Virus record (IMG/VR): IMGVR_UViG_3300025141_000560
Coordinates: 1-28,427 of that record
Length of the DNA stretch: 28,427 nucleotides
From: a virus
Reading direction: 5' to 3' (one strand)
Below are positions 7,888-23,136 of this stretch, piece after piece (within the stretch, counting starts at the first letter, position 1; each line of letters opens with the position of its first letter). Position numbers and translations under genes: made by a program. The notes under the pieces were generated by a model. The model saw only the letters and a list, made by a program, of their open reading frames with translations, made no database searches and was not told the DNA's origin.

Positions 7888-8738
7888 TATCCTGTTCTTG
7901 CTCCCATAAGATTTTGCAGATTAGCAAACGCTCCTATACCTGCATAAGTTGGATTAGGTTGGAATGGTTGTTGTGGTGACCCAGGAACTAATCCTGCAAC
8001 GCCTCCAAAAATATTAGCGGCTTGTTGAATTCTATTCATTGGAAGTTCCATTGCATTAACGTTGGCTTGAGCCAATTGATTTTGTAGTTGTTGAGCATAA
8101 GTATTTTCTGCTCCACCCATGACTCCAAATTGTTGACCTAGACCTTGTTGTAATCCTGGAACTAATTGAGCCATGCCTGTTAAATTTTGTAGACCTTGTT
8201 GAGCCAGGGTCTGTGCTTGACCAAATCCTTGTTGTTCAAGACCTGCATAAAGCATACCCCGATTCATATCTGATGCCGCATCATATTCAGCTTCTGCAAT
8301 TCCATGCCGAGCTCCTCCAAAAGCTCCTGCATCTGAGGCTGTTTTTCCCAAGCCTAATCTTGATATTTTGGCTTGTTTATCGAATTCTGCCATGGTCTTG
8401 TTAATAACATCTGTTTGATAGGGTGACATATAAGCTGAGTAGCCTGACGGCTCCAGTAAACTTTTGTCTTCAATACTTTGTAAGAAAGGTTGGAAAGAAG
8501 CAACGCCTGTTCCTCCAGTAAATCCGCTAACTTGTCCGGTAGCATCTCTTTGAATGGATCCAAGTCCACCCATATCAGCAGTCAACTGCTGCTGTGCTTG
8601 AGTAAAGGCTCCGGGTCCTGCAATCTTTGCAGTCATCGCTCCTACGTCGATAGGTTTTCCTAGTTGTTGAGTTGCTAAACTAGCAAGACCTTGACCGTAA
8701 GGTTGAACCCATTGTTGTTGTGAAGGTACTACTGCCAT
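7887..8738 (-). CDS. Putative internal virion protein, Q/G/A-rich
   Basis: This 283-residue protein is rich in glutamine, glycine and alanine. Its central block (about residues 100-170) has the pattern YMSPYQTDVINKTMAEFD, then GAFGGARHGIAEAEYD, which I recall as a conserved block in internal/ejection proteins of tailed phages from many environments. The C-terminal part has many Q-L-G helical repeats (residues 165-225) and a proline-rich end. Both ends overlap neighbours by one base as TAATG, so it is part of a tightly coupled trio with the 405- and 378-residue proteins. A virion role is likely, the exact function unknown. Confidence 0.75.
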   Translation of the reverse strand: MAVVPSQQQWVQPYGQGLASLATQQLGKPIDVGAMTAKIAGPGAFTQAQQQLTADMGGLGSIQRDATGQVSGFTGGTGVASFQPFLQSIEDKSLLEPSGYSAYMSPYQTDVINKTMAEFDKQAKISRLGLGKTASDAGAFGGARHGIAEAEYDAASDMNRGMLYAGLEQQGFGQAQTLAQQGLQNLTGMAQLVPGLQQGLGQQFGVMGGAENTYAQQLQNQLAQANVNAMELPMNRIQQAANIFGGVAGLVPGSPQQPFQPNPTYAGIGAFANLQNLMGARTG

Positions 8739-9955
8739 TATACTTGTCCTTGTGATTGCTCAGAGATTTCTCCTCCGGCTTCTAAATTTTTCATAACGTT
8801 GTACATTCGTTGTGCACCTTTGTCGATGTCCCCACCACCTGCATTTCTTACAGCATCTGCAGTAAAGACGAATTCGTTTTTACTTAATCTTGCTGGAACG
8901 TCATCAGCTTTTTCTCTACGACCGATAGGAACAAAGCCCCCATCTTGTCTATAATCTTTTTCCATACCCCCTAAATTAAGTAAAGGCATAATGCCTCCTT
9001 CTTTAGCTCCGATTCTTCCGCCTTGAGCTTTATTTAAATTTATAATTTCTTCTAATGCACCAGATTGTTCTAGTCCACTTTGTGCCTCCTGAATTTGCTG
9101 TATAATCATGTTAATTTGATCTGCTGTAACACCCGTTAAAGTAGAAATAGTATCAGTATCCATATTTTTGTTTAACATATCCTTTATCATTGCATCTTGT
9201 TCTTTACTTATAACTGGTCCAGCTATGTTGTAACCAATCCGTGGATCCATTGCGCCAATCCCTCCGAGGTTGTAACCAATCCTTCCGCCTTTAGCTTTAT
9301 CCATAACTTCATAGTTATCTTCTGATATTCCTGATAAGACAAGAGCTTCAGCAAGGTCTCTGCTTAATCCTCTGGCCATTAATTCTTTTATTTTTGCTTC
9401 ATAGTTACCACCAGCATCAAAACCTATTCTTCCACCTTCAGCGACCGCTGTGGTTTTCATAGCGGGAAGAGTAACATCTGTATAAGATGCAACGTCTGTT
9501 ATACTGTCAGGGACATTCGTAACGGCTGGTCCCCCTGCAACATTAACTGCAAATTCTTTTTCTGCGGCAGCCAGTTGTTGGTTAAGTTTATTAAACTGTT
9601 CCATTTCATGTGCGTTTAATCCTTCTTGATCTTTCTTAGCTTTTAAGCCTGTCCATACGGACAAAGCATCTGTACCTAAATTTTTAAGTCCCTCGTCTCC
9701 ACCATAACGACTATCGATTAAATCTGCACCCCACTCAATTACATCACTTCCTTTGTCTACTACCCAACCAACAGCATCAGTAAACCAGTTGTAAGAAGGC
9801 ACTCCAGATAATGTTTCAATTCCAGATCCTCCATGAGCTTTTAATAGTCTGGCTTCGCCTGGATTGATATAAGCTAATGATTCACCGTCAGGTGCATGTT
9901 TATTAAGCAGTTTAGCTGCTTGTTTCAGGTCTTTAATTCCGTTTGATTTTGCCAT
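8738..9955 (-). CDS. Virion-associated protein with repeated GGRIGY motifs
   Basis: This 405-residue protein carries a short motif four times: GGRIGFDAGG (174-183), GGRIGYNLGG (223-232), a shorter RIGYNIAG (239-246) and GGRIGAKEGG (312-321). Between the copies are helical segments. Residues about 351-393 form a distinct C-terminal block with ARLSKNEFVFTADAV followed by GGGDIDKGAQRMYNVMKNLE, which I recall as a widespread conserved block of unknown function in marine phages. The gene is coupled to the next by TAATG. Position suggests virion assembly or ejected cargo. No known enzyme motif is visible. Confidence 0.75.
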   Translation of the reverse strand: MAKSNGIKDLKQAAKLLNKHAPDGESLAYINPGEARLLKAHGGSGIETLSGVPSYNWFTDAVGWVVDKGSDVIEWGADLIDSRYGGDEGLKNLGTDALSVWTGLKAKKDQEGLNAHEMEQFNKLNQQLAAAEKEFAVNVAGGPAVTNVPDSITDVASYTDVTLPAMKTTAVAEGGRIGFDAGGNYEAKIKELMARGLSRDLAEALVLSGISEDNYEVMDKAKGGRIGYNLGGIGAMDPRIGYNIAGPVISKEQDAMIKDMLNKNMDTDTISTLTGVTADQINMIIQQIQEAQSGLEQSGALEEIINLNKAQGGRIGAKEGGIMPLLNLGGMEKDYRQDGGFVPIGRREKADDVPARLSKNEFVFTADAVRNAGGGDIDKGAQRMYNVMKNLEAGGEISEQSQGQV

Positions 9956-10542: not shown

Positions 10543-10710
10543 TTAACTCATAAATAAACTAAAGGATTCATACTCATCCGTTAGTTGTTGTTGGTAAGTC
10601 GTGTTAAGTTTTTGTACAACCGAACTTACATTATCCGCAATGCCTTGTACATTAACAGCATCAAAGTCGGGTCCAATAATCGTTGCTATTACTTCAGAAA
10701 TTTTTGCCAT
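10543..10710 (-). CDS. Small hypothetical protein (55 aa)
   Basis: An ATG at 10710 overlaps the TAA of the gp10-like gene (TAATG), and the frame runs 55 codons to TAA at 10543-10545, two bases before the next ATG. The product starts MAKISEVIATIIGPDFDAVN, is soluble and acidic, probably helical, and has a QQQ run near residue 40. It exactly fills the gap between two good genes and is coupled on both sides, which is strong support despite its size. Function unknown. Confidence 0.7.
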   Translation of the reverse strand: MAKISEVIATIIGPDFDAVNVQGIADNVSSVVQKLNTTYQQQLTDEYESFSLFMS

Positions 10711-12875
10711 TATCTTCTGCCCCCTGGATGAATATCTAATCTAAACGTTCCCATCCTCCAACTTTGACCGGTGCTTGTATTGCCTACTTTAATCGCAATC
10801 TGTCGAGCACGAGCTCTTGCAAAAAGTTGGGTCGTTGAAGTGGTCGAAGTATAATTAGTGGATACAGCCGTACTATTCGGGAAAGTTTTTGTACTTAAAG
10901 TAATCCGTGAGTCCCCAGTTTGGGATCCATAGTCAGGCATAATACGACTAATCCTCATAATAAATTCTCCTTCGCCTTGTTCCCCTTCAGCACTTCCAAT
11001 ATCATAATCTCCAGACTCAACATAGCCTGCAATCGCATTCGTGGTTCCATCAGTAAAGACTTCATCGGTTCCTTTTTCTTGTTCCCAATAATAACTCGCA
11101 CCATTTGAAATACCTACAACAGTAGGAAAAGTCGGAGCGACAGCATTTTTATATTCGGTTGCAAACGGTTTCGTATAAACGCCTTCAATCGTCCATGTTG
11201 AACGAGCTAAAGATGACGTATACCAAATCGGATTACCGGATGAAGATTCCATATAATTATAAGTCACCGATCGATCCACATAGTCGGATCCTGAACTTGG
11301 ATAGAACCAAGTAATTTCTCCAAAGAGAGCGTTAACAGCCACATGGATTTGTTGATTTGCATTAGCATTAATATCTTCAAAGACATAGTCTTCAACTAAA
11401 CAAGGCATCGTGTGAACTCGGCCTCCATCAAACTTATAAAATCCAGTAGGTCCCATCCAATAGGCTATACCATCGACTTCAGCGGCGGAGTGTTGACTTG
11501 ACATCCCACAGTTAGTTCCGACTTGAGTAAAACCAAAGGTTAACGTAGGTCCGATATACTTCATCGTATACATGGCTGTGTCCGACCAAATATAAACAGC
11601 GTTCTTTCCTACAATAGCGCCAATCAATTTAGAGCCATCACTTAATCTTTGAGCACCAGCGGTATTCTGTACGCTTGGTGTCCATACGGTTTGTGATTCT
11701 TGATTCGACCATCTTACAAACATATCATCTTGAGTGGCTGCAGTTTGCAATGTGGTTTCTGTTCCAATACAAATTAAATGTCGATCGGGAACGGATACGA
11801 CCATGTCTCTTGAAGCCGTTGGAACTTCTGTTCCTGATACTACGACCGCTCTTACATTTAGATTAGGAACCGAAGGCTCCCATTTAAATATTTTTTTATT
11901 ATGAACTAAAGCTAATAGATCTTCACCATAGTTTAAAAGTCTCCATTGACCGGGTTCAATAACAATATTAGAACTAGTACTTGCGCTACCCCAACCGACA
12001 AAGTCTGTGGCATCACGAGTTATAGTTCCATTCGCATGTTCGACATCACTAGTTCCTCCTGCTCCTCGAGTAAATCCAGAAAGGGTATTCGTTCCTGTGT
12101 TGTTGGTTGTATAAGTAATTAATTCATTCTCAATTAAAATCGTTCCACCGCCTGCAGCTGTTGTTGGAAACGCAGAGGTACTTGTAAAAGTACAAGAGCT
12201 TGCTCCTGCAGCTAAGACACCTCCATTATTAATAGTCGTTGATGTAACGGGAGTTGTATATCCTCCGAAAGTATTGGTACCCCAACCATAGCCATAACCT
12301 TGACTAATGGGTCCAATGACATAATAAAAATCTATTGTTGTGGATCCTCCGGTAGCACTTCCCGAAGCATTACTACCCATTTCAATTTCCATGGTTGTAG
12401 CGCTCGGTACATTTTTTACTTCAAATAAAATATCTTCAAAATCAGCATCAGTAAATCCTGTTCCTCCAGGAACGGTAACAGCATCTAATAAAATAATATC
12501 TCCCACATCCGCACCATGAGCGGTTCCTGTTGTAAGAGTAACAGTTGCATCCCCATTCACCATAGTGAAAGTACAACTGGTTTGTTGTCTGCCTGTATCT
12601 AAAGGAGTGATGTCATAGACTGCACCTTCATAATAAATGTATAAACATTTATTAGTTCCAATCGCAGCATATTTATTACCTGCTAAATCTACCCAGGTAT
12701 GTTGATCACGACCGGCTCCGATAAGTTTATCGGCTACCAGTTGTTGCCATCCTCCGATTTTTTCAGGAAAGCCATATCTAAATCGAGAGTAATCGGCGTT
12801 AACCCACTTACCTTCTGCTCCTGTATCTGAGGACTGCTTATCTAATCCAGGTTTTAATCTGATCTTATGTAGCAT
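10710..12875 (-). CDS. P22 gp10-like tail/DNA stabilisation protein
   Basis: This 721-residue protein begins with KIRLKPGLDKQSSDTGAEGK and VNADYSRFRYGFPEKIGGWQ, the N-terminal signature I associate with the phage stabilisation (P22 gp10-type) family, which forms the tail hub that plugs the portal channel after packaging. Residues about 100-290 look like inserted beta modules; the second (about 215-287, containing ENELITYTTNNTG and SGFTRGAGGT) also occurs in the 298-residue virion protein at 25177-26073. The rest (300-721) is the beta-rich body. It starts 44 bases after the oxygenase cassette, with a possible promoter in that gap. P22 gp10 is shorter (about 470 residues), consistent with the insertions here. 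Confidence 0.8.
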   Translation of the reverse strand: MLHKIRLKPGLDKQSSDTGAEGKWVNADYSRFRYGFPEKIGGWQQLVADKLIGAGRDQHTWVDLAGNKYAAIGTNKCLYIYYEGAVYDITPLDTGRQQTSCTFTMVNGDATVTLTTGTAHGADVGDIILLDAVTVPGGTGFTDADFEDILFEVKNVPSATTMEIEMGSNASGSATGGSTTIDFYYVIGPISQGYGYGWGTNTFGGYTTPVTSTTINNGGVLAAGASSCTFTSTSAFPTTAAGGGTILIENELITYTTNNTGTNTLSGFTRGAGGTSDVEHANGTITRDATDFVGWGSASTSSNIVIEPGQWRLLNYGEDLLALVHNKKIFKWEPSVPNLNVRAVVVSGTEVPTASRDMVVSVPDRHLICIGTETTLQTAATQDDMFVRWSNQESQTVWTPSVQNTAGAQRLSDGSKLIGAIVGKNAVYIWSDTAMYTMKYIGPTLTFGFTQVGTNCGMSSQHSAAEVDGIAYWMGPTGFYKFDGGRVHTMPCLVEDYVFEDINANANQQIHVAVNALFGEITWFYPSSGSDYVDRSVTYNYMESSSGNPIWYTSSLARSTWTIEGVYTKPFATEYKNAVAPTFPTVVGISNGASYYWEQEKGTDEVFTDGTTNAIAGYVESGDYDIGSAEGEQGEGEFIMRISRIMPDYGSQTGDSRITLSTKTFPNSTAVSTNYTSTTSTTQLFARARARQIAIKVGNTSTGQSWRMGTFRLDIHPGGRR

Positions 12876-12896: not shown

Positions 12897-12923
12897 ATTA
12901 TACTATATTTTTGAAGAGATCAA
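12897..12923 (-). promoter_or_regulatory. Possible promoter before the gp10-like gene
   Basis: On the minus strand a perfect TATAAT (12902-12897) is preceded by TTGATC (12923-12918) with a 15-base spacer, which is short. The start codon of the gp10-like gene is about 20 bases downstream. The site lies in the gap that ends the oxygenase cassette. In AT-rich DNA such a match can arise by chance, so this is tentative. Confidence 0.3.
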
Positions 12924-13573
12924 CCTAGTTTAGGTATACCGAGAATAGGTCTTTTATCATATAAATTGGTCTTTGCATATGGACCATCAGCATGATTATA
13001 ATGTAGAAAGACTTGGCCGCAGAGTTTACCTTGGAAAGGTTCTCTCCAATGCTCTAATTCACAACCTGAATATATAATCATATCTCCTGGGCCTAATGTA
13101 TAGGGAATACCTTTAGGAGCTCCAGGTTTATGGACACCTTTATATTCATCAATAACATTATCACTTCTAGTAGGGTCTATGAAGATAGGCCATGGGTCTC
13201 CCCCTAAATTAAGGGTGGTAGATATTTCACAGCTAGGTCTATCTTTGTGTCTGTTTAAAATATTACCGGTTCTGTATAATCTACAATAAGCATAAGTGGG
13301 AATTAATTTTAAACCTGTTTTCTTTTCCATTACAGGAATAGTCTTAATAAGTAATGTTTCCATTAAACGATCTGCATACTTTGCATAAGAATTGGGGACT
13401 TGTGGGTCTTTAAAATTACCCACTAAAAAATTTTTTTCATGAGTATTACCTGTTTTTAATAGCCACTGATCGGCTTCGGCTGAGATTTGTAAATAACGAT
13501 AAGCTATATCACACACTTCTTTGGACACAGCTCCTTTAATAAGTTGATATTTATCTTTGTTAAATGTAGGCAT
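12920..13573 (-). CDS. 2OG-Fe(II) oxygenase-like protein
   Basis: This 217-residue protein shows the core of the 2-oxoglutarate/Fe(II) oxygenase fold: YRTGNILNRHKDRPSC provides the HxD iron ligands (H109, D111), and PGDMIIYSGCELEHWRE supplies the distal His (H175). The ending GQVFLHY matches the last core strand. The usual arginine that anchors 2-oxoglutarate is not obvious about 10 residues after H175; R177 or K183 are the nearest basic residues, so the cofactor may be held differently. Family members hydroxylate amino acids, proteins or small molecules; the substrate is unknown. It overlaps the ParB-like gene by 14 bases and closes the accessory cassette. Confidence 0.8.
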   Translation of the reverse strand: MPTFNKDKYQLIKGAVSKEVCDIAYRYLQISAEADQWLLKTGNTHEKNFLVGNFKDPQVPNSYAKYADRLMETLLIKTIPVMEKKTGLKLIPTYAYCRLYRTGNILNRHKDRPSCEISTTLNLGGDPWPIFIDPTRSDNVIDEYKGVHKPGAPKGIPYTLGPGDMIIYSGCELEHWREPFQGKLCGQVFLHYNHADGPYAKTNLYDKRPILGIPKLG

Positions 13574-13982
13574 CGACTACTTTCTGATATTCGGGAGGCA
13601 TAATCAGATCAATGCGTCCTTCCTTATCTCGTCTTATTTGTAAGTGATCTTTTAATTTAAATAAAGATCTAATCTCGTCATCCGTTTTTAATTCTCTTCC
13701 TTCTAAATCAAATGTTTCTGGAGTCCAAATATTAACAATGATAGGAATTTCTTTAATCCCTAGTTCTTTAGCAACAGCCATTCTATTATTGCCCACTATT
13801 ATTTTAATCTTAGGTCCATAATCGTGTCCATACTCAGCATACACGGGTTCTAAAATTCCGTGTTTTTTAATGGAAGCTGTTAATTTATTTTTAAATTCTT
13901 TTTCTTCCTTATGAAACTCGGGTCTATCTAGGTAATGAATTTGATCAATAGGTAGATTTGTGTAAATTAGTTTAGTTTTCAT
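13560..13982 (-). CDS. ParB/sulfiredoxin-like domain protein
   Basis: The 140-residue protein holds a single ParB-N/Srx-type domain. Residues 10-25 carry the opening (LPIDQIHYLDRPEF), followed by a helix with ASIKKHGILEPVYA and the hallmark IIVGNNRMAVAKELGIKEIP at 61-80, the nucleotide-binding GxxR box. It lacks the helix-turn-helix DNA-binding and dimer domains of true partition proteins, so it is better seen as a stand-alone phage ParB-like nucleotidase or enzyme. It is placed between oxygenase genes, with a 14-base overlap downstream. Substrate unknown. Confidence 0.8.
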   Translation of the reverse strand: MKTKLIYTNLPIDQIHYLDRPEFHKEEKEFKNKLTASIKKHGILEPVYAEYGHDYGPKIKIIVGNNRMAVAKELGIKEIPIIVNIWTPETFDLEGRELKTDDEIRSLFKLKDHLQIRRDKEGRIDLIMPPEYQKVVDAYI

Positions 13983-13994
13983 TATTAAGAATTC

Positions 13995-14603
13995 TCATCT
14001 TACTTTCAATAATTGTTTACAATTAGGGACATTGTCCACTATATTAATTTTTTTATTCATTGCCCGGGCAAGCGCAAGTAATGAATAATAAACGTACTTG
14101 CTTTGTTTGGCCCAGTCAAAACTTTCGCAAACCAGTATCCTGCTATATTTAATATCTGATATATCTTTAAGTTGAAAATAACGTTTAAAAATAGGAAGTT
14201 GTCTTACTTTAGCAAGGTTAGCTTCTATAAATTCGATAAATCCTGAGTGATAATTCGAGACCCAAATATACCCTTTAATTTTCTTATAACGAATAAGGGC
14301 TAAAACCCATGAGGCTTCATCCATGATTCCTTTATCCATATCCTTGTATTGTTTATCGTTGTAACCTGTGTCGTGATGTTCATCAATATTAACTAAAATA
14401 GTATTAGGGGAAACAAAAGGATAATGAAAGTGATGTTCTTCGGAGAAATAAACTTCTTTAACATCCTTAACCTTATCTATAAAGTAGGAGAGAAGTTCTT
14501 GATGCTGGGAGGGAGATCTTACCCAGTCACAATCAATACTTAAAATGTAATCATCTCGCATTAGTGATGGAGACACCTTTCGTTTTTTAAACTTTGCTAT
14601 CAT
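13995..14603 (-). CDS. DEHHD-motif protein, possibly UPF0489/arginase-like
   Basis: This 202-residue protein has SIDCDW (D24, D26), a histidine cluster EEHHFH (55-60) and NIDEHHD (72-78), a set of acidic and histidine residues typical of a metal site. The pattern of an early DxD and a DEHHD resembles the UPF0489 group, which is thought to have an arginase-like fold; this is from memory and moderate at best. The C-terminal half (about 100-200) is alpha/beta. It overlaps the end of the upstream oxygenase gene by 17 bases; an alternative start is M15, with a weak ribosome site. No known function; its place suggests joint action with the oxygenases. Confidence 0.65.
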   Translation of the reverse strand: MIAKFKKRKVSPSLMRDDYILSIDCDWVRSPSQHQELLSYFIDKVKDVKEVYFSEEHHFHYPFVSPNTILVNIDEHHDTGYNDKQYKDMDKGIMDEASWVLALIRYKKIKGYIWVSNYHSGFIEFIEANLAKVRQLPIFKRYFQLKDISDIKYSRILVCESFDWAKQSKYVYYSLLALARAMNKKINIVDNVPNCKQLLKVR

Positions 14604-15216
14604 TAGGAGTTTGAATAAAATTAAAAGATACAGATACTCTTAAACTTTTATCTCCTTTAGCTTTAGTATTATTGTCTACTACACCATGAGGAACCCATGA
14701 TGGAAACATAATACATCTTCCTTCTACCGGTGGAATATTTGTCACTCTCCATAGAGAGCTAGGAAGATTAGGTACCCTTCTAGGTAATTGAATATTGGCT
14801 CCTGGTCTGGGATCTTCTAACCATAAACACCCTGAGTCTTTAGGAACTTGAACATAATAAACTCCTGAAAAATCTGAATTAGGATGTATGTGATATTTAT
14901 TATAAGCGTGAGGTGGATTAATATTAGCCCACATATTACCTAACCCTATGTTAGGTTCCATTCCATAATCTTTAAAAATTTCGTGCATCATAACAAAAAG
15001 ATGATCACATAAAGGTTTATATTCTGGTTTATGATTCATGTCTGTAGGACTATGCCATCCTCCCCCTGAATTAGTTTTATCTAAACTGGGTTCTCTTTGA
15101 GCCCAGGCTTTAATAAGCTTAAAAAGTTGTTTATTTAAATGCTTGGAATCTGGAAAATCTTTAAAGTAAATAGGTGTGGGCCACATTAAGTCCCTTTTTA
15201 ATTTGAATTGATTCAT
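14587..15216 (-). CDS. 2OG-Fe(II) oxygenase, TIGR02466-type
   Basis: The start is ATG at 15216, which overlaps the TGA of the previous oxygenase (ATGA), with GGAGG 12 bases before it; the longer GTG frame from 15240 is not supported. The 209-residue protein begins LMWPTPIYFKDFPD and contains WANINPPHAYNKYHIHPNSD and SGVYYVQVP, matching the TIGR02466/2OG-FeII_Oxy_5 pattern I know from cyanophages and marine phages. Candidate iron ligands are H109 or H111 with D115, and H177 in FPSWVPHGV; R193 in KSLRVSVSF is the likely 2-oxoglutarate anchor. Substrates of this family are not known. Part of the four-oxygenase cassette. Confidence 0.85.
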   Translation of the reverse strand: MNQFKLKRDLMWPTPIYFKDFPDSKHLNKQLFKLIKAWAQREPSLDKTNSGGGWHSPTDMNHKPEYKPLCDHLFVMMHEIFKDYGMEPNIGLGNMWANINPPHAYNKYHIHPNSDFSGVYYVQVPKDSGCLWLEDPRPGANIQLPRRVPNLPSSLWRVTNIPPVEGRCIMFPSWVPHGVVDNNTKAKGDKSLRVSVSFNFIQTPNDSKV

Positions 15217-15800
15217 CGTAGCGGGGGACCTCCAAACCACATCACTAAAGAATGTCTTACCCCTTTTTTAACAGGGGCTACTCGGTGTCTTAAAAAGGAA
15301 GCAAAGAAAATAGCTTGTCCTCGTTTTAAATCATTAATTTTTTTCCCTTTATCCATAAATTCTAATTCTCCTCCTTTAAAGTCGGAAGGATCAGAAAGTA
15401 AAAGAGTCATAGATATTTTTCTAACCGTAGGCTGATGCTCAAAATTAGTATCAGAATCCATATGCCAATCATAAAACCCTCCTTTAGGATATTCGGTAAA
15501 TTGTGCAAGTTCTGTTACTCCCATACCCTCAAAACCAAAATGATTACCATTCACTTTTAACATTTGGTCTTCTATTTGTTTGTACATTTCTGGCATCTCT
15601 TTAAAAGGAATCCAACTAATAGTAGTAACTCGTTTTTTTGTATCCGCTTTACCACCGTGGATTCCAGCGCCCACTAGAGCCTTTCGTGGTTTTAACGAAC
15701 GCCCTTTTTCAATAACCATTTGACATTGTTTAGGAGTAAACATAGGCTCATTAGTCATTGCGATATATGATTTCCATTGAGGTTCAAAAATTATCGGCAT
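15213..15800 (-). CDS. PKHD-type prolyl/lysyl hydroxylase-like oxygenase
   Basis: This 195-residue protein has a full set of 2OG-Fe(II) dioxygenase residues: YDWHMDSD gives H113 and D115, SFLRHRVAPV gives H172, and R182 in GVRHSLVMW sits ten residues later as the 2-oxoglutarate anchor. The segment RKISMTLLLSDPSDFKGGEL is characteristic of PKHD/PiuC-type hydroxylases. Size is close to that family (about 200-230). It shares a base with the preceding gene and overlaps the next by ATGA, so the three oxygenases are coupled. Probable protein or amino-acid hydroxylase; substrate unknown. Confidence 0.88.
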   Translation of the reverse strand: MPIIFEPQWKSYIAMTNEPMFTPKQCQMVIEKGRSLKPRKALVGAGIHGGKADTKKRVTTISWIPFKEMPEMYKQIEDQMLKVNGNHFGFEGMGVTELAQFTEYPKGGFYDWHMDSDTNFEHQPTVRKISMTLLLSDPSDFKGGELEFMDKGKKINDLKRGQAIFFASFLRHRVAPVKKGVRHSLVMWFGGPPLR

Positions 15801-16462
15801 TACTTTCCCATCTCACCAGCGGTTCTAGAAGCCACAGGATCATAATCTACATCCACATTACAAACTAATGTTCTTCTTTTTTCTTTTGTAGAATTAAATG
15901 GATAAACGCAATGTCTCACGTCATAGGGAAACACATAAAAATCTCCAAGTTTAACATTCGGTGAATAATCTGTTTTAGCAAATTGACCAGCAGCTGCTCC
16001 TGAAATTTGAAGTCTCCCATTCATGGGTTTTGATTCTGCTGAATATTCCACACCATAATCAGATGGAAGTTTCATAATCATAACGGAAGAGAGACCGGTA
16101 AATAATTTACCTTGATGAATATGGATAGGATTATATTCTCCTGCTCTCATTTCATTAACCCAAATAGAATTTATATTCGTCGTATAACCATAAATTTTAT
16201 TCCAATCTAAATAATGTTTAAATACAGAATAAAACCACTGCAATAAATCAGTTGGTAAAAAATTATGTTGATGCATCTTGTCATTGTTGGGCCCTGCATA
16301 ATGAAGTGAAACTTCATCTTTAATTTTACCCACAAGTTGTTTGTTAGCTTTAGGTAATTCTTTTTTTCTTTTTTCGTAAATTTCTGTGAGACCAGCAAAC
16401 ACGTCTACCGGTGTTTTGTATTTTAAGACTGTTTGACCAAAGTATACAAAGTCAAAATTCAT
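15800..16462 (-). CDS. 2OG-Fe(II) oxygenase-like protein (second TIGR02466-like)
   Basis: The 220-residue protein resembles the TIGR02466-type oxygenases: NSIWVNEMRAGEYNPIHIHQ leads to H114 and H116, then FTGLSSVMIMKLP, and a distal GDFYVFPYDVRHCVYPF gives H184, with R196 or R197 as anchor. The acidic iron ligand is not clear after HIH, where the family often has Asp or Ser a few residues on. It is a different sequence from the oxygenase at 14587-15216 and so probably has another substrate. It starts 3 bases after the coiled-coil gene and ends on the first base of the PKHD-type gene. Function inferred from motifs only. Confidence 0.8.
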   Translation of the reverse strand: MNFDFVYFGQTVLKYKTPVDVFAGLTEIYEKRKKELPKANKQLVGKIKDEVSLHYAGPNNDKMHQHNFLPTDLLQWFYSVFKHYLDWNKIYGYTTNINSIWVNEMRAGEYNPIHIHQGKLFTGLSSVMIMKLPSDYGVEYSAESKPMNGRLQISGAAAGQFAKTDYSPNVKLGDFYVFPYDVRHCVYPFNSTKEKRRTLVCNVDVDYDPVASRTAGEMGK

Positions 16463-16465
16463 ACT

Positions 16466-17137
16466 CTACTTTCTTTTGAGTTGCTTGGGTTTTTTGCTAT
16501 CCAGTGATAATGTTTTTTCTGCTATATTTTTTTCTAAAGATTCTAGTTGTCCTAGTACATTAAACACTTCTGGTTGGGAAGTACCCGGTGTAATAGTTTT
16601 TTGTTGTTCTCGTAATCTTAATAAATATGAATTGGCTTGATGCGTATTTACATCTCTATCATCAAAAGAATTATCATGAAATTCTTTTTTAAGTTTAGAC
16701 CAAGTAGCAACTTCTCTCATTCTATGTTTAGCTACCAATTCCATTTGAGCTTTCCCATAGAGTTTTTCTTCTAACTCTACTTGTTTCATTTTTTTATCTA
16801 AAGGGTCTTTTTCTTTCTTGATATCTCTTTTTAATTTTTCTATTTCAATATCATTTTTTCTAGAGTCAAAAGATAGATGAACTAAATTTTCAAAGTGTGT
16901 ATTCTGTTCTCTAACCGACTGCCAATATTTAGCAGCTCTAGTTGGATATTTATTATCGGATAACACCGAAAATCTCATTTCAGTTTCTGTTCTGAACATC
17001 TGTTTCTTCATCCAAGTATCTTGAAGTTCAGGTATAAGTTTTTTGAACTGAACGACATCTTGTTTATCCAAGATTTTAGTTAAGTACTTCGACTCAGTTT
17101 CTAGCTTTGCAACAATATTACGTTTTTCTTTATTCAT
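16466..17137 (-). CDS. Charged coiled-coil protein, unknown function
   Basis: This 223-residue protein is very rich in K and E, with long helical stretches at about residues 1-35, 95-150 and 190-223 and a lysine-rich end (KKPKQLKRK). A strong AGGAG precedes the start by 9 bases. No membrane segment, signal peptide or catalytic motif is seen. It lies after a hairpin at the end of the propeller genes and directly before the four oxygenases, so it may belong to that cassette as a scaffold, or be a tail assembly protein. Family not recognised. Confidence 0.75.
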   Translation of the reverse strand: MNKEKRNIVAKLETESKYLTKILDKQDVVQFKKLIPELQDTWMKKQMFRTETEMRFSVLSDNKYPTRAAKYWQSVREQNTHFENLVHLSFDSRKNDIEIEKLKRDIKKEKDPLDKKMKQVELEEKLYGKAQMELVAKHRMREVATWSKLKKEFHDNSFDDRDVNTHQANSYLLRLREQQKTITPGTSQPEVFNVLGQLESLEKNIAEKTLSLDSKKPKQLKRK

Positions 17138-17202: not shown

Positions 17203-18993
17203 TTATGAAGTAGTTACTGTTGCTACCGCTAAAGCGGCTGTCCATTCTTCGGACTGACTTTCTGCTGGTGGGCCTCCACCCGCTGCAAGAGTGTTTGCAG
17301 CTGAATTTTTAGGTGCTGATGGTCTTGCAGCATTAGCCAAATCAGCAACTTCTGTCCAGCTTGTTCCATCAAAAATTTCTGTATTAGCTAAATCAAATGG
17401 GGGGCCTCCACCAAAAGTTAATGCGCTTGTTTGAGTACCTGAACCAGCATTGAAAAACCTAGCAGTGTTCATATCATTGACTTCTGTCCAACTTGTTCCG
17501 TCCCATTTTTCTGTTTTTCCTGTGGCTGGTTCTCCACCAAAAACTAATCCTGCTGCTTGTGTTCCTGCTCCACCTCCACTTATTCTAGCTGTATTTAAAT
17601 TATTAACTTCTGTCCAAGCAGATCCGTTCCAGCTTTCAGTATCTGCTGTAGCAGTTGTGGTATAACCACCTGCATATAAAGTAGCAGGGGCAGCTAAACC
17701 AACACCCATACCTTGTCGTCTTGCAGTATTTATATCTGTTGTTTCTGTCCATGCAGAACCATTCCAAGACTCTACGTTTGCAATATTTGTATCAAGACCT
17801 GCAATCTCTAATGCATTTGTTAAAGTTCCAGTTCCAGCAGCTTTATCTCTTGCTGTATTTAAATCAGCGTCTTCTGTAAAAGCAGTTCCATTATAAGATT
17901 CATTTAAAACTGAAGTTGAGGCTGTAGATGTTCCACCACCAAATATTCTTGCAGATGACTGACCTGATCCCGATCCTGCTGCATAAAATCTTCCCGTATT
18001 CATTGTTCCACCAGAAGCCCATGCTCCTGTAGGTATAGAACCTTCATAACCTTTTAAAGCCCCAGTAGTTGAATTATACCAGAGATCTCCTTCGACTAAA
18101 ATTGCAGCTGTAATAGCTGGAAAAGACCATTCTTCTGTTGCAGTTGTTGCACTAGGAGTCTTTCCTGATGCACCTAATGCAGATGTATTACCTGCTCCCG
18201 CAGCACCCATTTCTGATCGTGCTGTACTTAAATTATTGACTTCTGTCCAAGATGTTCCATCGTAAGATTCTGTATTAGTTGTAAGAGATGGATTACCTCC
18301 TCCAAAACTTAAAGCCGAAGTCTGAGTACCACATACTCCATTAAAATTAACTGCGGTGTTTAAATTAGCTCCTTCAGTCCAATTTGTGCCATCCCAATAT
18401 TCAACATTAACTGTTCTCCAAGGAGAAGAAGGAATTTCACCACCAGCACCTAAAGCTGCAGTTTGAGTTCCAGTACCAAACACTACTTTTGGAGTGTTTA
18501 AATCATTGACTTCTGTCCAAGAAGTCCCATTCCATTTTTCAGTTACTGCTTGATAAGGAGGTCCTCCACCATAGCCTAAAGCAGCTGTGCTTGTTCCAGC
18601 TCTTCCAATTCTCATTCTTGCAGTGTTTAATTCATTTACCTCTGTCCATGTACTTCCATTCCAAGTTTCAGTATTATCCATATTGGGAGTTCCAGGACTT
18701 TGACCGCCGGCATCGACAGCTGCTGTAGTTGTTCCAGACAGTCCACTGTTAGCCCTTCCAGTGTTTAAATTATTGACTTCTGTCCATGTGGATCCATTAT
18801 AAGTCTCCACATCAGCCGTAGATGTATTACCTCCAGCTAAAATAGCTGCAGTTTGAGTTCCGTCTGCACCTTGGCACACATCGTTTCTTGCGGTATTTAA
18901 AGCTCCACCGCTAGCCCAAGATCCTTCATTTGCAACAGGGTCAGAATCTAATGATTGAACTGTAAATCCTTTTATGTCTCTATAATTTGCCAT
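17203..18993 (-). CDS. Double six-bladed beta-propeller tail protein
   Basis: This 596-residue protein begins with MANYRDIKGFTVQSLDSDP, shared with the two related genes, and holds two propellers (about residues 25-298 and 325-590). Each has five full blades with the motif E-x-[YFW]-[DN]-G-[ST]-x-[WF]-T-E followed by a variable loop, NTAR-type turn and GG strand. A sixth blade appears to be closed by the N-terminal WASGG-xNTxR strand and a C-terminal EEW strand (velcro closure). The link (VEGDLWYNSTTGALKGYEGS) resembles fibre collar hairpins. Kelch-like propellers usually bind sugars or proteins, so a receptor-binding or fibre role is likely. The start is 1 base after the preceding stop. Confidence 0.8.
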   Translation of the reverse strand: MANYRDIKGFTVQSLDSDPVANEGSWASGGALNTARNDVCQGADGTQTAAILAGGNTSTADVETYNGSTWTEVNNLNTGRANSGLSGTTTAAVDAGGQSPGTPNMDNTETWNGSTWTEVNELNTARMRIGRAGTSTAALGYGGGPPYQAVTEKWNGTSWTEVNDLNTPKVVFGTGTQTAALGAGGEIPSSPWRTVNVEYWDGTNWTEGANLNTAVNFNGVCGTQTSALSFGGGNPSLTTNTESYDGTSWTEVNNLSTARSEMGAAGAGNTSALGASGKTPSATTATEEWSFPAITAAILVEGDLWYNSTTGALKGYEGSIPTGAWASGGTMNTGRFYAAGSGSGQSSARIFGGGTSTASTSVLNESYNGTAFTEDADLNTARDKAAGTGTLTNALEIAGLDTNIANVESWNGSAWTETTDINTARRQGMGVGLAAPATLYAGGYTTTATADTESWNGSAWTEVNNLNTARISGGGAGTQAAGLVFGGEPATGKTEKWDGTSWTEVNDMNTARFFNAGSGTQTSALTFGGGPPFDLANTEIFDGTSWTEVADLANAARPSAPKNSAANTLAAGGGPPAESQSEEWTAALAVATVTTS

Positions 18994-18994
18994 A

Positions 18995-20809
18995 TTAACT
19001 TACCGTAATTGTATAATTTGCTAAGCTCACTGCCCATTCTTCAGTAGCTGCTCCACCCGGAGCAGTTCCACCAAAAACTATTCCTGCAGAAGTGCCAGTT
19101 CCTGATGACATGTTACCACCACAATTTCTACCTATTGAAAGATCTCCTACTTCGGTCCAACTTGAGCCATCAAAATATTCTGTAACTGCAACATTTGAAC
19201 TTCCGTCATAACCAGCCGCAACTACTTGTGCAGTTTTAGTTCCAAATCGAAAACCGCCTTGTCTTCCTGTATTTAAATCTGCTACCTCTGTCCAACTTGT
19301 GCCATCATACTGTTCACAAACTGCCTGTGAACTATCGCTAGGATTTTGACCGCCGGAACATATAGCTGCGGTAGGACTACCTGATGCCATAGCAGCAGAT
19401 CTTCCTGTATTTAAATCTCCAACTTCAGTCCAATTTGTTCCATTAAAGTTTTCTGTTATTCCTGAATTTGGTGCATTACCTATAGCTAAACCTGCTGTTT
19501 GTAATCCACATCCTGCTACATAAAGTCTAGTTGTATTTAAATCGTTCACTTCTGTCCAAGATGTACCATTCCAACTTTCATTTGCGTCAGTAGCACTAGG
19601 TGTTCCTCCTCCAAAACCATTTGCTGCACCTTGAAGTCCAAAACCACCTAAATTATTTCGCCCCGTATTCATATCATTTACTTCAGTCCATGCTGATCCA
19701 TTATAAGATTCTGTAACTGTTGATCTTGATGGTCTATCTCCAGCAAAAACTAAAGTTGCTGTAGGTGTTCCATTACTTGCTCCTCCAGCATTTGTTCCTG
19801 GAGCATTTAAATTTCCACCAGAAGCCCATGTGCCTCCTGGTACTTTTACTTGTGAAACTTTAAAAGCGTTTGTTGATGAAGAGTTAAAGTAAACTTGTCC
19901 TTCATTTATTTTTGTAAGTGATGAAGCCGTTGACCATTCTTCTGATGATTCTTTTGCAGGAGTTCCAGGAGTTCCGCCGGCATAAATTGACGAAGGTTGA
20001 GTTCCTCCCCCTGCTCCATAATATTTTGCTATTGATAAATCACCAGCCTCTGTCCAGCTTGTTCCATCAAAAATTTCTGTTTTTGTAGTAGAGGGTGGTT
20101 CACTTCCACCAAAAACTAAACCAGCGGTTTGAGTTCCTCCTCCTGATAGATATTGTCTAGCTGTGTTCAAATCTCCAACCTCTGTCCAATTTGTTCCATC
20201 AAAAGATTCAACAATAGCTCGGTAGGGATTTCCTCCTGAACCTATTCCTGCTGTACTCGTTCCAAATGTTCCTTGACCACTTCTGGCTGTATTTTGATTA
20301 TTTAGTTCTGTCCAAGAACTTCCATTCCATAATTCGCAATTGTTAGAAGGTGCGGCAGAAACGATAAGGGAGGCACTTTCTGAAGCCCCCAAACCTCTTC
20401 GGCCTTGAACTCCATTACTTATATTTGTTTCTTCTGACCAATTGGTTCCATCAAAAGTTTCAGTGAAGGAACTATTTCCTCTAGGAGAGGTTGTATAACC
20501 TGCTGTCACTAATGCAGATGTAGTTACTCCTGCGCTTGCGCCATCTTGTCTTCGTTGGTCTGTATTATTAACTTCGGTCCATGCAGAGCCATTATAGACT
20601 TCGCAATCATAAACTTGAGATCCATCACTACCATCCGGTGTTCCATTAACAACCATCCCGGCAGTTCCAGGTCCTGTTCCAAAAAGTTCCATCCGACCAG
20701 TATTTATATTTGGTGCAGAGGCCCAAGTTCCCGTAGCTCCTATAGACGCAGCAGGATCACTACTTAGGCTTTGAACGTTAAAACCTTTTATATCTTTGTA
20801 ATTTGCCAT
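18995..20809 (-). CDS. Double six-bladed beta-propeller tail protein, paralogue
   Basis: This 604-residue paralogue has the same plan: MANYKDIKGFNVQSLSSDP start, first propeller to about residue 298, link with NEGQVYFNSSSTNAFKVSQ at about 300-325, second propeller to the end. Each half has five full E-x-[YFWL]-[DN]-G-[ST]-x-W-[ST]-E blades plus the EEW closing strand. The blades differ from those of the next gene mainly in the loops between strands, as expected for binding surfaces under selection. A good AGGAG precedes the start. Its place suggests a tail fibre or spike component; a purely structural role is also possible. Confidence 0.8.
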   Translation of the reverse strand: MANYKDIKGFNVQSLSSDPAASIGATGTWASAPNINTGRMELFGTGPGTAGMVVNGTPDGSDGSQVYDCEVYNGSAWTEVNNTDQRRQDGASAGVTTSALVTAGYTTSPRGNSSFTETFDGTNWSEETNISNGVQGRRGLGASESASLIVSAAPSNNCELWNGSSWTELNNQNTARSGQGTFGTSTAGIGSGGNPYRAIVESFDGTNWTEVGDLNTARQYLSGGGTQTAGLVFGGSEPPSTTKTEIFDGTSWTEAGDLSIAKYYGAGGGTQPSSIYAGGTPGTPAKESSEEWSTASSLTKINEGQVYFNSSSTNAFKVSQVKVPGGTWASGGNLNAPGTNAGGASNGTPTATLVFAGDRPSRSTVTESYNGSAWTEVNDMNTGRNNLGGFGLQGAANGFGGGTPSATDANESWNGTSWTEVNDLNTTRLYVAGCGLQTAGLAIGNAPNSGITENFNGTNWTEVGDLNTGRSAAMASGSPTAAICSGGQNPSDSSQAVCEQYDGTSWTEVADLNTGRQGGFRFGTKTAQVVAAGYDGSSNVAVTEYFDGSSWTEVGDLSIGRNCGGNMSSGTGTSAGIVFGGTAPGGAATEEWAVSLANYTITVS

Positions 20810-20818
20810 AAAGGACTC

Positions 20819-21103
20819 CTACGGCAGATTATATTTAACTGGTCTAGTTTGTCGGTTTTGCTCTTCAGCTGATAATGCATCATAAGCAGCTTGTGCTGTT
20901 TCAATTTCACCATCAACAATAGCTTGTGCTTCTGCTTTTGTTTTAGCAGCTCCACTTACTTTGCTAATCCAGCTATCACCATGATGATTGTCGCCTACAA
21001 CCCATACTTCGCCAGCATGACCTGCAAGGTAAAACTGTCTTCTCTCTTCGTGAGTGAAGAAGTTCTTTCCCCAGTTCGTCGCTGTACAGTATTTATATGC
21101 CAT
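20819..21103 (-). CDS. Small conserved tail-region protein (94 aa)
   Basis: This 94-residue protein starts after a strong AGGAGG and reads MAYKYCTATNWGKNFFTHEE, then a W-rich middle (GEVWVVGDNHHGDSWISKV) and an alanine-rich helix (KTKAEAQAIVDGEIETAQAA). It is soluble, has one cysteine and no TM. It lies between the single and double propeller genes. A role as a small fibre, cap or assembly protein is suggested only by position; I recall similar helix endings in marine phage tail regions but no named family. Confidence 0.7.
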   Translation of the reverse strand: MAYKYCTATNWGKNFFTHEERRQFYLAGHAGEVWVVGDNHHGDSWISKVSGAAKTKAEAQAIVDGEIETAQAAYDALSAEEQNRQTRPVKYNLP

Positions 21104-21139: not shown

Positions 21140-22120
21140 TTAACTTGTTGTCACTGTTTTAATTTGATAGTCATCGGCAGTCCATTCTTCTGTTACATTT
21201 TGTGGAGAAGGTCCTCCTCCCATTGCAATTCCTGCATTAGAAGCTCCAGTTCCTGCCAGTCCATATCGAGATGTCGAAAGATCAGCTACTTCAGTCCATG
21301 AAGTTCCATCCCATGATTCCGTGATAACTGCAGCCGGGTAATCTGCTGTAATGATAGCTGCAGTTTGAGTTCCAAACATCGCTCCATAACCATGACTTCC
21401 ATTTGTATTATTTACTTCTGTCCAAGAAGTTCCATTATAAGTTTGACAATCTCGATAGGGAGCAGATTCTGCTCCTGCATTAAGACCCGCTGTAGTAGTT
21501 CCGGTTGAGGAATTTCCAATCACTGCTCCAGGTAGATCATTTCCTTCGGTCCAAGAACTTCCATTAAATGTTTGAGAGTTAGCAGTAGCTGTACCGCCAC
21601 TACTATCTCCACCTATCATCATGGCAGCAGTATTCGTTCCCAATGAACCCATCCAAGCCATTCCAGTAACGACATCACCTACTTCAGTCCAATTTGTTCC
21701 ATCATAAGATTCTACATTAGAAGTTCGGGCATTACTATCTGGACTATAAGGAGTCCCTGACATACATAAAGCTGCCGTTTGTGTTCCTGCTCCTCCTGGT
21801 CCAGCTCGACTAGTATTTAAATTATTGACTTCTGTCCAAGACGTTCCATCGTATTTTTCAGTCTCATTTTTTGCTCCAGAATTATATCCTGAAAAAGCCA
21901 TTGAAGCACTCTGAGGAGCATTTCTAGCTGCAGCTATATAATGACGAGCAGTATTCAAATTGCCACCTGAAGCCCACGTTCCAATCGAAGCGCCTCCATC
22001 TTTAACAACTTTAAATTTTTTTCCTGTAGAATCGTAATAAAAATCTCCGACAATTGGATTGTCAGGATCCCCATCTCGGGATTGTATTTTAAAGCCCTGT
22101 ATACCTTTATAAGTAGCCAT
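21140..22120 (-). CDS. Single six-bladed beta-propeller tail protein
   Basis: This 326-residue protein is the single-propeller member of the set. An N-terminal head (MATYKGIQGFKIQSRDGDPD) and a hairpin with VGDFYYDSTGKKFKVVKDGG (residues 24-43) precede the propeller (about 48-315). Five full blades follow the motif E/Q-x-[YFW]-[DN]-G-[ST]-x-W-T-E and the last strand is EEW. The two larger genes look like duplications of this unit. Likely fibre or receptor-binding protein; substrate or receptor unknown. The gene is coupled to the fibre-like gene upstream, 5 bases away. Confidence 0.8.
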   Translation of the reverse strand: MATYKGIQGFKIQSRDGDPDNPIVGDFYYDSTGKKFKVVKDGGASIGTWASGGNLNTARHYIAAARNAPQSASMAFSGYNSGAKNETEKYDGTSWTEVNNLNTSRAGPGGAGTQTAALCMSGTPYSPDSNARTSNVESYDGTNWTEVGDVVTGMAWMGSLGTNTAAMMIGGDSSGGTATANSQTFNGSSWTEGNDLPGAVIGNSSTGTTTAGLNAGAESAPYRDCQTYNGTSWTEVNNTNGSHGYGAMFGTQTAAIITADYPAAVITESWDGTSWTEVADLSTSRYGLAGTGASNAGIAMGGGPSPQNVTEEWTADDYQIKTVTTS

Positions 22121-22125
22121 GAAGC

Positions 22126-23136
22126 TTATTTATCCTTCAATACCCACCCTTGAGTTGAATCAGTGAAGACTAATGTAAAAGCGGCACGTTCAACGGAAAC
22201 CGTTAAATCAGCTGCTACACCATTAATTTTTTCCGAACCATTAGGGGAGACAGTTAGATTATTTGAATCAAATGTTCCTGCATAATCAACACAAGTTACT
22301 TCATCTCCTATAGAGCCTGCGGGTAATGCAACCGTGAAAGCTGCACTTGTTGTATTACAAAAATATCCTTGTCCTCCCACTGCTGTAAAACCTGAAGTTT
22401 TAACTGCTTGCCAAGATGTTCCTCCTGAGTTATCCACCCATGATAAAACACCACCTGTTGTTGATGTCAGTATTTGATCATTAGAACTAGCAACGGCTGC
22501 CGGCATCGTTAATGTATAAGATGTCGTTGTACCTGATGCTTTAAATCCAATGTATGCACTATCGTCTGTATCCGCTAATCGCAATTCTTTCTGAGAATTA
22601 ATTGTCAATCCAGTTCCAGCGGTCCAGATTAAATCTGCATCTCCGCCAAAAGCGCCTGAATTATTGTATTGAACTTGTGTATTTGATCCACCCGGAGAAG
22701 TTGAAGCTCCAAAACCTGTATCAACTATATCTGGATTAGTACCATCATTTGCTGTTGCATAAACAAGTACTGTTGAACCGTTAGAAATTGCAACACTTGA
22801 ACCAGACCCACTTGTATATTTAAATGTAACAGTTTGTGAACCTGAGGTTGCGTTTTTAAGTATATAAATTTGTTGAACGTCTAAAGGAATAGTAACATTT
22901 CTGCCTGCAGATAATGATCCAGTGAATTGAATACATCTGTGAGCAAGAGTTGCTCCAGTTGCACCATCTGATACCGATAAAGCTGTATCAGCTCCATCAG
23001 TTACTGCTTGTGTTGTATAACCACCAGAAACCTGTTCAATGATATCCCAGTTAGTATTAGTTAACGTACCCCATGTGCCGGCTTTTTCACCGGTTGCCAT
23101 TTTTTGTACGCCGAGTGCTGTATATGTTGAAGGCAT
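22126..23136 (-). CDS. Tail fibre-like structural protein
   Basis: This 336-residue protein opens with STYTALGVQKMATGEKAGTW and TLTNTNWDIIEQVSGG, an N-terminal block I recall from marine phage fibre-type proteins, where it likely attaches to the virion. The rest is beta-rich: a G/S/T-rich middle, and a C-terminal domain (about 245-336) with GDEVTCVDYAGTFDSNNLTV and SPNGSEKINGV. That C-terminal pattern resembles the 136-residue virion protein at 27228-27638. A TAGGAG precedes the start by 11 bases. A fibre or baseplate-like role is likely; whether it is the receptor binder cannot be told. Confidence 0.75.
   Translation of the reverse strand: MPSTYTALGVQKMATGEKAGTWGTLTNTNWDIIEQVSGGYTTQAVTDGADTALSVSDGATGATLAHRCIQFTGSLSAGRNVTIPLDVQQIYILKNATSGSQTVTFKYTSGSGSSVAISNGSTVLVYATANDGTNPDIVDTGFGASTSPGGSNTQVQYNNSGAFGGDADLIWTAGTGLTINSQKELRLADTDDSAYIGFKASGTTTSYTLTMPAAVASSNDQILTSTTGGVLSWVDNSGGTSWQAVKTSGFTAVGGQGYFCNTTSAAFTVALPAGSIGDEVTCVDYAGTFDSNNLTVSPNGSEKINGVAADLTVSVERAAFTLVFTDSTQGWVLKDK

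Follow-up and report, generated by a model that had tools for sequence, protein, structure and literature searches.

Predicted 2-oxoglutarate oxygenases accompany propeller-type fibre genes in an uncultured marine podovirus fragment

Among the genes of ocean phages that still lack an explanation, those for 2-oxoglutarate (2OG)-Fe(II) oxygenases are some of the most frequent, and they have usually been interpreted as auxiliary metabolism. Cyanophages carry one to five of them per genome (PMC3037559), the genome of S-SCSM1 carries 24 (PMC9602691), and in the HTVC023P-type pelagiphages eight kinds are found next to a gene annotated as 'ferrochelatase', a combination read as auxiliary metabolism involving haem (PMC9599517). 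In Pelagibacter phage HTVC008M four 2OG oxygenases and a 'ferrochelatase' follow each other (gp068-gp072), a PrnA-like halogenase lies nearby, and the block adjoins baseplate genes annotated as wedge initiator. In the light of these genomes, the view that single oxygenases are the norm in marine phages, held in a sequence-only reading of the DNA studied here, is outdated. Here we describe the IMG/VR record IMGVR_UViG_3300025141_000560, analysed over its 28,427 bases (the window), an uncultured marine podovirus-type fragment. Its long gene chain, wholly on the minus strand and rich in tail and virion genes, includes three propeller genes, a conserved gene named cc and four oxygenase-fold genes (OXA, OXB, OXC and OXD), followed by a tail gene.

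Runs of oxygenase genes near fibre genes are thus already known from HTVC008M and HTVC023P. The HTVC008M block includes an OXD homologue (47% identity), but this phage is a T4-like myovirus with another set of oxygenases, and matches to cc and the propellers were not found in it. The HTVC023P-type phages share the family of the window's tail gene (10710-12875, 43% identical to HTVC023P and HTVC027P) and have OXB-, OXC- and OXD-type genes in the same place; in contrast, the propellers and cc were not found in them and the relatives of OXB and OXC are distant (176 and 53 bits, respectively). At the limits used, the propellers, cc and the window DNA had no match in cultured phages, and a profile search that had no positive control did not detect cc in HTVC033P, HTVC023P, HTVC008M, S-P4 or HTVC106P. 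What is new in the window is the pairing with a specific fibre type, the fifth gene cc and the relabelling of the 'ferrochelatase'. In the literature searched, with subscription papers largely outside it, neither the pairing nor cc nor an oxygenase identity for phrog_2954 was found to be reported, which is not proof of absence.

The three propeller genes, cc and the four oxygenase-fold genes all read in the same direction before the tail gene and behave in evolution as a single module. All are on the minus strand. The first propeller gene (17203-18993) encodes a kelch-like protein, probably a receptor-binding fibre head, recognized by its repeat profile and by phrog_27227 (551 bits), a family with no functional annotation; the second (18995-20809, 473 bits to the same family) has the same N-terminal anchor, MANYKDIKGF, and the third (21140-22120, 225 bits) is shorter. 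We consider it slightly better than an even chance (about 0.52) that the window encodes a module, linked to the fibres, for the oxidative finishing of fibre proteins, the propellers being the candidate substrate.

The pairing was seen in a neutral sample of contigs, fetched by the tail gene and the gene at 22126-23136 with no use of the cassette, of which 50 were informative after de-duplication. The cc gene was present in all 17 contigs with propellers and in none of the 33 without them, and OXA scored above 200 bits in 13/17 propeller contigs vs. 1/33 of the others. In a larger set, partly selected by the cassette, 65 of the 74 propeller contigs had the exact order OXA-OXB-OXC-OXD. Relatives with other fibre types hold other enzyme sets at the same place: in contigs with glycine-rich fibres (FGYxxLGFG) the oxygenases number from one to nine and their order varies, and a tryptophan halogenase, confined to this fibre type, is present in 7/16. 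A tree of the tail genes from 83 contigs shows nine or more changes of fibre type, and where the tails are 84-90% identical but the fibres differ, the enzyme sets differ as well. When bacterial and archaeal genomes were scanned for cc, five loci were obtained, every one of which has oxygenases and a propeller-type gene. Co-occurrence with propellers, the check proposed in the sequence-only reading, thus came out strongly positive, and action on fibre or propeller proteins is therefore favoured over general host metabolism, as that reading had held. The 'stepwise pathway' that it also envisaged finds no evidence of sequential action.

The cc gene (16466-17137) encodes a conserved protein of 223 amino acids, weakly matched by phrog_1409 in 24/24 members, and it belongs to the oxygenase unit, the real unit being one of five genes and larger than previously noticed. 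When pairwise protein distances are compared among cc, OXA, OXB, OXC and OXD, the correlations lie at 0.82-0.93 over 109-132 contigs (0.82-0.89 for cc vs. the four oxygenases), and cc is under the strongest purifying selection of the five, with a ratio of non-synonymous to synonymous substitution rates (dN/dS) of about 0.05-0.09. Its product may serve as an adaptor or as a chaperone for the fibre. Correlation of the unit with the upstream structural gene at 22126-23136 is 0.13-0.37 and with the tail gene 0.43-0.71, the lowest value being that of OXD although it adjoins the tail gene.

These distances bear on the explanation that the propellers, cc and the oxygenases are adjacent and recombine as one segment, the enzymes having unrelated targets. 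The genes are indeed contiguous, and marine phages are known to have host-recognition loci that are hypervariable (PMC7029224; PMC3909814). However, the breakpoints are separate, with OXD tracking cc rather than the adjoining tail gene, the pairing is kept in distant phages that differ in backbone and in gene order (loci L372-L374), and relatives that have no propellers mostly carry other oxygenases at the same place rather than none. Linkage alone was rejected as the main explanation on the distance correlations, the fibre changes in the tail tree and the bacterial-genome loci, and we regard it as quite improbable.

The four open reading frames were found on the minus strand where the sequence-only reading had placed them, and its view that four different oxygenases run together with virion genes in the same direction stood, as did the coupling of three of them by overlaps, which amount to one base between OXA and OXB and four bases between OXB and OXC (CGATGA). 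OXC overlaps the gene at 13995-14603 by 17 bases and the gene at 13560-13982 overlaps OXD by 14; three bases separate cc from OXA, and 44 bases separate OXD from the tail gene. As OXC is separated from OXD by the genes at 13995-14603 and 13560-13982 (ParB-like), the four oxygenases are in a conserved order but not strictly adjacent, contrary to the earlier description of four in a row.

OXA, OXB, OXC and OXD are four different proteins of the 2OG-Fe(II) oxygenase fold under purifying selection (dN/dS about 0.08-0.27 vs. nearby relatives) and predicted enzymes. OXB (15213-15800) belongs to PF13640 (2OG-FeII_Oxy_3; 59.6 bits, cut-off 27) and has an intact HxD..H..R site, with H113, D115, H172 and R182 invariant in an alignment of 36 sequences. 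It aligns across the catalytic core with the PiuC/YbiX hydroxylases of the PKHD type (PDB 9ghl and 3dkq), PiuC being the nearest solved relative. Against the PKHD YbiX/PiuC equivalogs, however, it reaches 59 bits at best, below the cut-offs (143-399). OXC (14587-15216) is a member of TIGR02466 (124.5 bits, cut-off 62.5) and of PF13759 (80 bits, cut-off 27) with a HxH(P)N..H site, H109, H111 and H177 being invariant in the family alignment; a longer GTG frame reaches 15240, and the ATG at 15216 yields 209 amino acids. About 110 of its residues, including HIHP(N/H)S, align with the structural-genomics proteins 2rg4 and 3bvc, but these have no assigned function and hence give no hint of a substrate. 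OXA (15800-16462; HxH..H..R with invariant H114, H116, H184 and R196) is a weaker member of PF13759 (39.5 bits) and is placed in that family only, its score to TIGR02466 being 21.1 bits, below the cut-off; of the two genes earlier called TIGR02466-like, OXC alone qualifies. In the families of OXA and OXC, HxH..H is invariant and a conserved acid is absent where the 2-His-1-carboxylate triad would usually have it, whereas OXB and OXD have HxD..H, so that 'mostly acidic' sites apply to two of the four. Judged from these alignments, three-histidine iron binding, another ligand and lost catalysis are all possible for OXA and OXC.

OXD (12920-13573) falls into phrog_2954, described as 'ferrochelatase' (181.6 bits), and matches nothing in Pfam at an E value of 0.1. 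Its AlphaFold2 model, built on an alignment of 41 sequences, has a mean predicted local distance difference test score (pLDDT) of 93.1 and a predicted template modelling score of 0.89. A Foldseek search returned 666 PDB matches at E≤0.001, the top ones (E 2e-9) being the prolyl-4-hydroxylase of Pseudomonas putida (PPHD; alone, 4j25, and with EF-Tu, 4iw3) and human PHD2. 2OG oxygenases dominate the top 50, among which no ferrochelatase was found. H109, D111 and H175 of the HKD..H site are invariant in the 41 sequences. Identity to PPHD and PHD2 is 12-18%, and, unlike in these enzymes, the usual 2OG-binding arginine is not evident in OXD (Q187 at that strand). In the viral library OXD matches the 'ferrochelatase' of S-SM1 together with proteins named 2OG oxygenase or prolyl 4-hydroxylase. 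Neither a profile-profile comparison with OXB (hhalign probability 0.8%) nor a search of the OXD profile against PDB sequences (nothing useful) was informative, and the assignment was settled by the fold search. Since the modelled fold matches 2OG oxygenases and HKD..H is invariant, the label 'ferrochelatase' on OXD and phrog_2954 is probably wrong and the protein probably a prolyl-4-hydroxylase-like oxygenase. PHD-like folds of phages have already been reported (PMC12774648). The row 'Hyp. with ferrochetalase domain' (T4-GC 615) of the cyanophage survey is the same annotation as that of S-P4 gp111 (PMC3037559). In sibling contigs phrog_274 ('DNA endonuclease V') and phrog_2297 ('DNA endonuclease') match the same proteins as phrog_81/61 (e.g., L084:7186-7719), and their names may be similar misnomers of 2OG oxygenases.

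The label matters for the proposal that the oxygenases draw down 2OG or shift the nitrogen, iron or haem metabolism of the host. On its basis oxygenases have been linked with haem or iron metabolism, and 2OG oxygenases and 'ferrochelatase' have together been proposed as auxiliary metabolic genes, also in seasonal pelagiphages (PMC9599517; PMC11561400), while for cyanophages a role of 2OG and NtcA has been put forward (PMC3037559). Homologues away from fibre genes in S-P4 and HTVC106P would fit this proposal. The haem half of it, however, depends on phrog_2954, whose fold is that of an oxygenase, and metabolic genes are not expected to swap with the fibre type or to need four enzymes in a fixed order. 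We therefore regard auxiliary metabolism as an unlikely explanation of the cassette.

If the module instead finishes fibres, the soluble enzymes would be made late in infection together with the virion genes in the SAR11 cytoplasm, which supplies 2OG, iron and oxygen, and would act on newly made propeller proteins before assembly. The cc protein may present the fibre or hold the enzymes together, OXB and OXD would add hydroxyl groups to side chains, and the fibre, once finished, would be assembled on the tail, the modification tuning its folding, stability or receptor specificity. That the closest folds of OXD are enzymes hydroxylating prolines in proteins counts for this reading. The one literature search aimed at hydroxylated phage tail proteins yielded no paper. 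Several points weigh against fibre finishing. Propeller modification, the substrate and hydroxylation are all deduced. The counts are not independent trials, since the contigs share ancestry and the genes of the unit are contiguous; cc and the oxygenases adjoin the fibre genes, and physical linkage may explain part of the co-occurrence. The distances of the five-gene unit correlate weakly with those of the propellers (0.26-0.41), and the aligned sites of OXA and OXC are without the usual acidic ligand. Finally, a relative of OXD in S-P4 lies beside replication genes and one of OXA in HTVC106P among small unannotated genes; because these homologues sit away from fibre genes, virion linkage is not universal for the oxygenase families.

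The strongest rival to fibre finishing is that the enzymes alter the host surface seen by the fibre, such as an outer-membrane protein or a lipopolysaccharide precursor, and thereby keep progeny from being caught on debris or exclude competing phages. The pairing with fibre type is expected under this rival as well, and glycosyltransferases and other such genes do lie in the host-recognition cluster of pelagimyophages (PMC7029224). Yet the four proteins are short and soluble-looking, their sequences show no obvious signal or membrane segments, the constant partner cc is left unexplained, and the nearest folds of OXD are protein hydroxylases. On balance such surface alteration seems unlikely.

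Halogenases of PF04820 (332-372 bits in those scanned) are found in sibling loci among the oxygenases between the glycine-rich fibre genes and the tail gene (L066:7218-9862, L076:7694-9175, L313:3228-4688 and 8105-9628, and also L049, L058, L320 and L340). In another sibling nine oxygenase-like genes lie consecutively between fibre and tail genes (L084:4886-9954). The halogenases, together with the PrnA-like gene of HTVC008M, would suit enzymes that make a small oxidised or halogenated molecule. This is highly improbable for the window, given that a halogenase is present in 0/74 propeller contigs of the larger set, that no biosynthetic core gene was seen and that the order with the fibre genes is fixed. 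Fibre tryptophan as the halogenase substrate was considered and is unsupported, the tryptophan content of the glycine-rich fibres not differing clearly with halogenase presence. As a tentative extension of fibre finishing, marine phages might run a maturation resembling that of ribosomally synthesized and post-translationally modified peptides, with an exchangeable oxygenase set for each fibre type, flavin halogenases for glycine-rich fibres and a cc adaptor for the kelch-like propellers; chemistry together with sequence would then decide adsorption.

The bacterial-genome contigs also bear on the fibres and on the host. The same cassette is found in a contig of a Pelagibacteraceae single cell (L370, cc 82% identical), and a more distant carrier (L373) is a SAR11 single-cell contig in which the cassette lies beside nuo-like host genes. 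Because relatives of the cassette occur in these contigs, the host of the window phage is most likely SAR11. The locus in L373 (4993-12057) has a smaller set (OXD and OXB) and two tRNA-Asp genes near the border between phage and host, and the phage genes joined to the nuo-like genes are possibly a provirus. L374 (2956-10115) is a reordered locus with cc, two oxygenases and an intervening sulfotransferase; its propeller, a distant homologue of the kelch-like protein at 17203-18993, follows a collagen-like stalk (PF01391, 130 bits) in a fused protein, which supports the propellers as fibre heads. The propeller repeat, of which approximately 1,300 units were examined, is about 45 residues long, ends in ..ES[WY][ND]GSSWTEVNDLNTAR and has conserved asparagine, aspartate, proline, tryptophan and arginine positions, any of which might be a site of modification.

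The tail gene and the two accessory genes are on the minus strand as well. The tail gene closing the locus is a relative of the P22 gp10-like 'phage stabilization protein' (phrog_3287, 280 bits), and its relatives are annotated as stabilization protein; further tail and structural genes span 22 to 27 kb. A small conserved gene of 94 amino acids (20819-21103) recurs among the propeller genes of relatives. The accessory gene at 13995-14603 (202 amino acids) was found in only 11 viral loci, both with and without propellers. Its DxD and DEHHD motifs resemble those of arginase-like or UPF0489 proteins; beyond the motifs there was no relevant Pfam match, and its model (pLDDT 69.8) gave no significant fold match. 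The other accessory gene (13560-13982) encodes a ParB-N domain protein (PF02195, 31.4 bits), present in a minority of cassettes and patchy in relatives.

Independently of the fibre reading, phrog_2954, whose label has been a basis for arguments on viral haem and iron metabolism in recent papers, appears to be a misnamed oxygenase. The pairing of enzyme set and fibre type gives the oxygenases a concrete and testable substrate. SAR11 is one of the most abundant bacterial groups of the ocean. If fibre finishing holds true, post-translational oxidation of fibres, and in relatives perhaps their halogenation, would be a new layer of host recognition in SAR11 phages.

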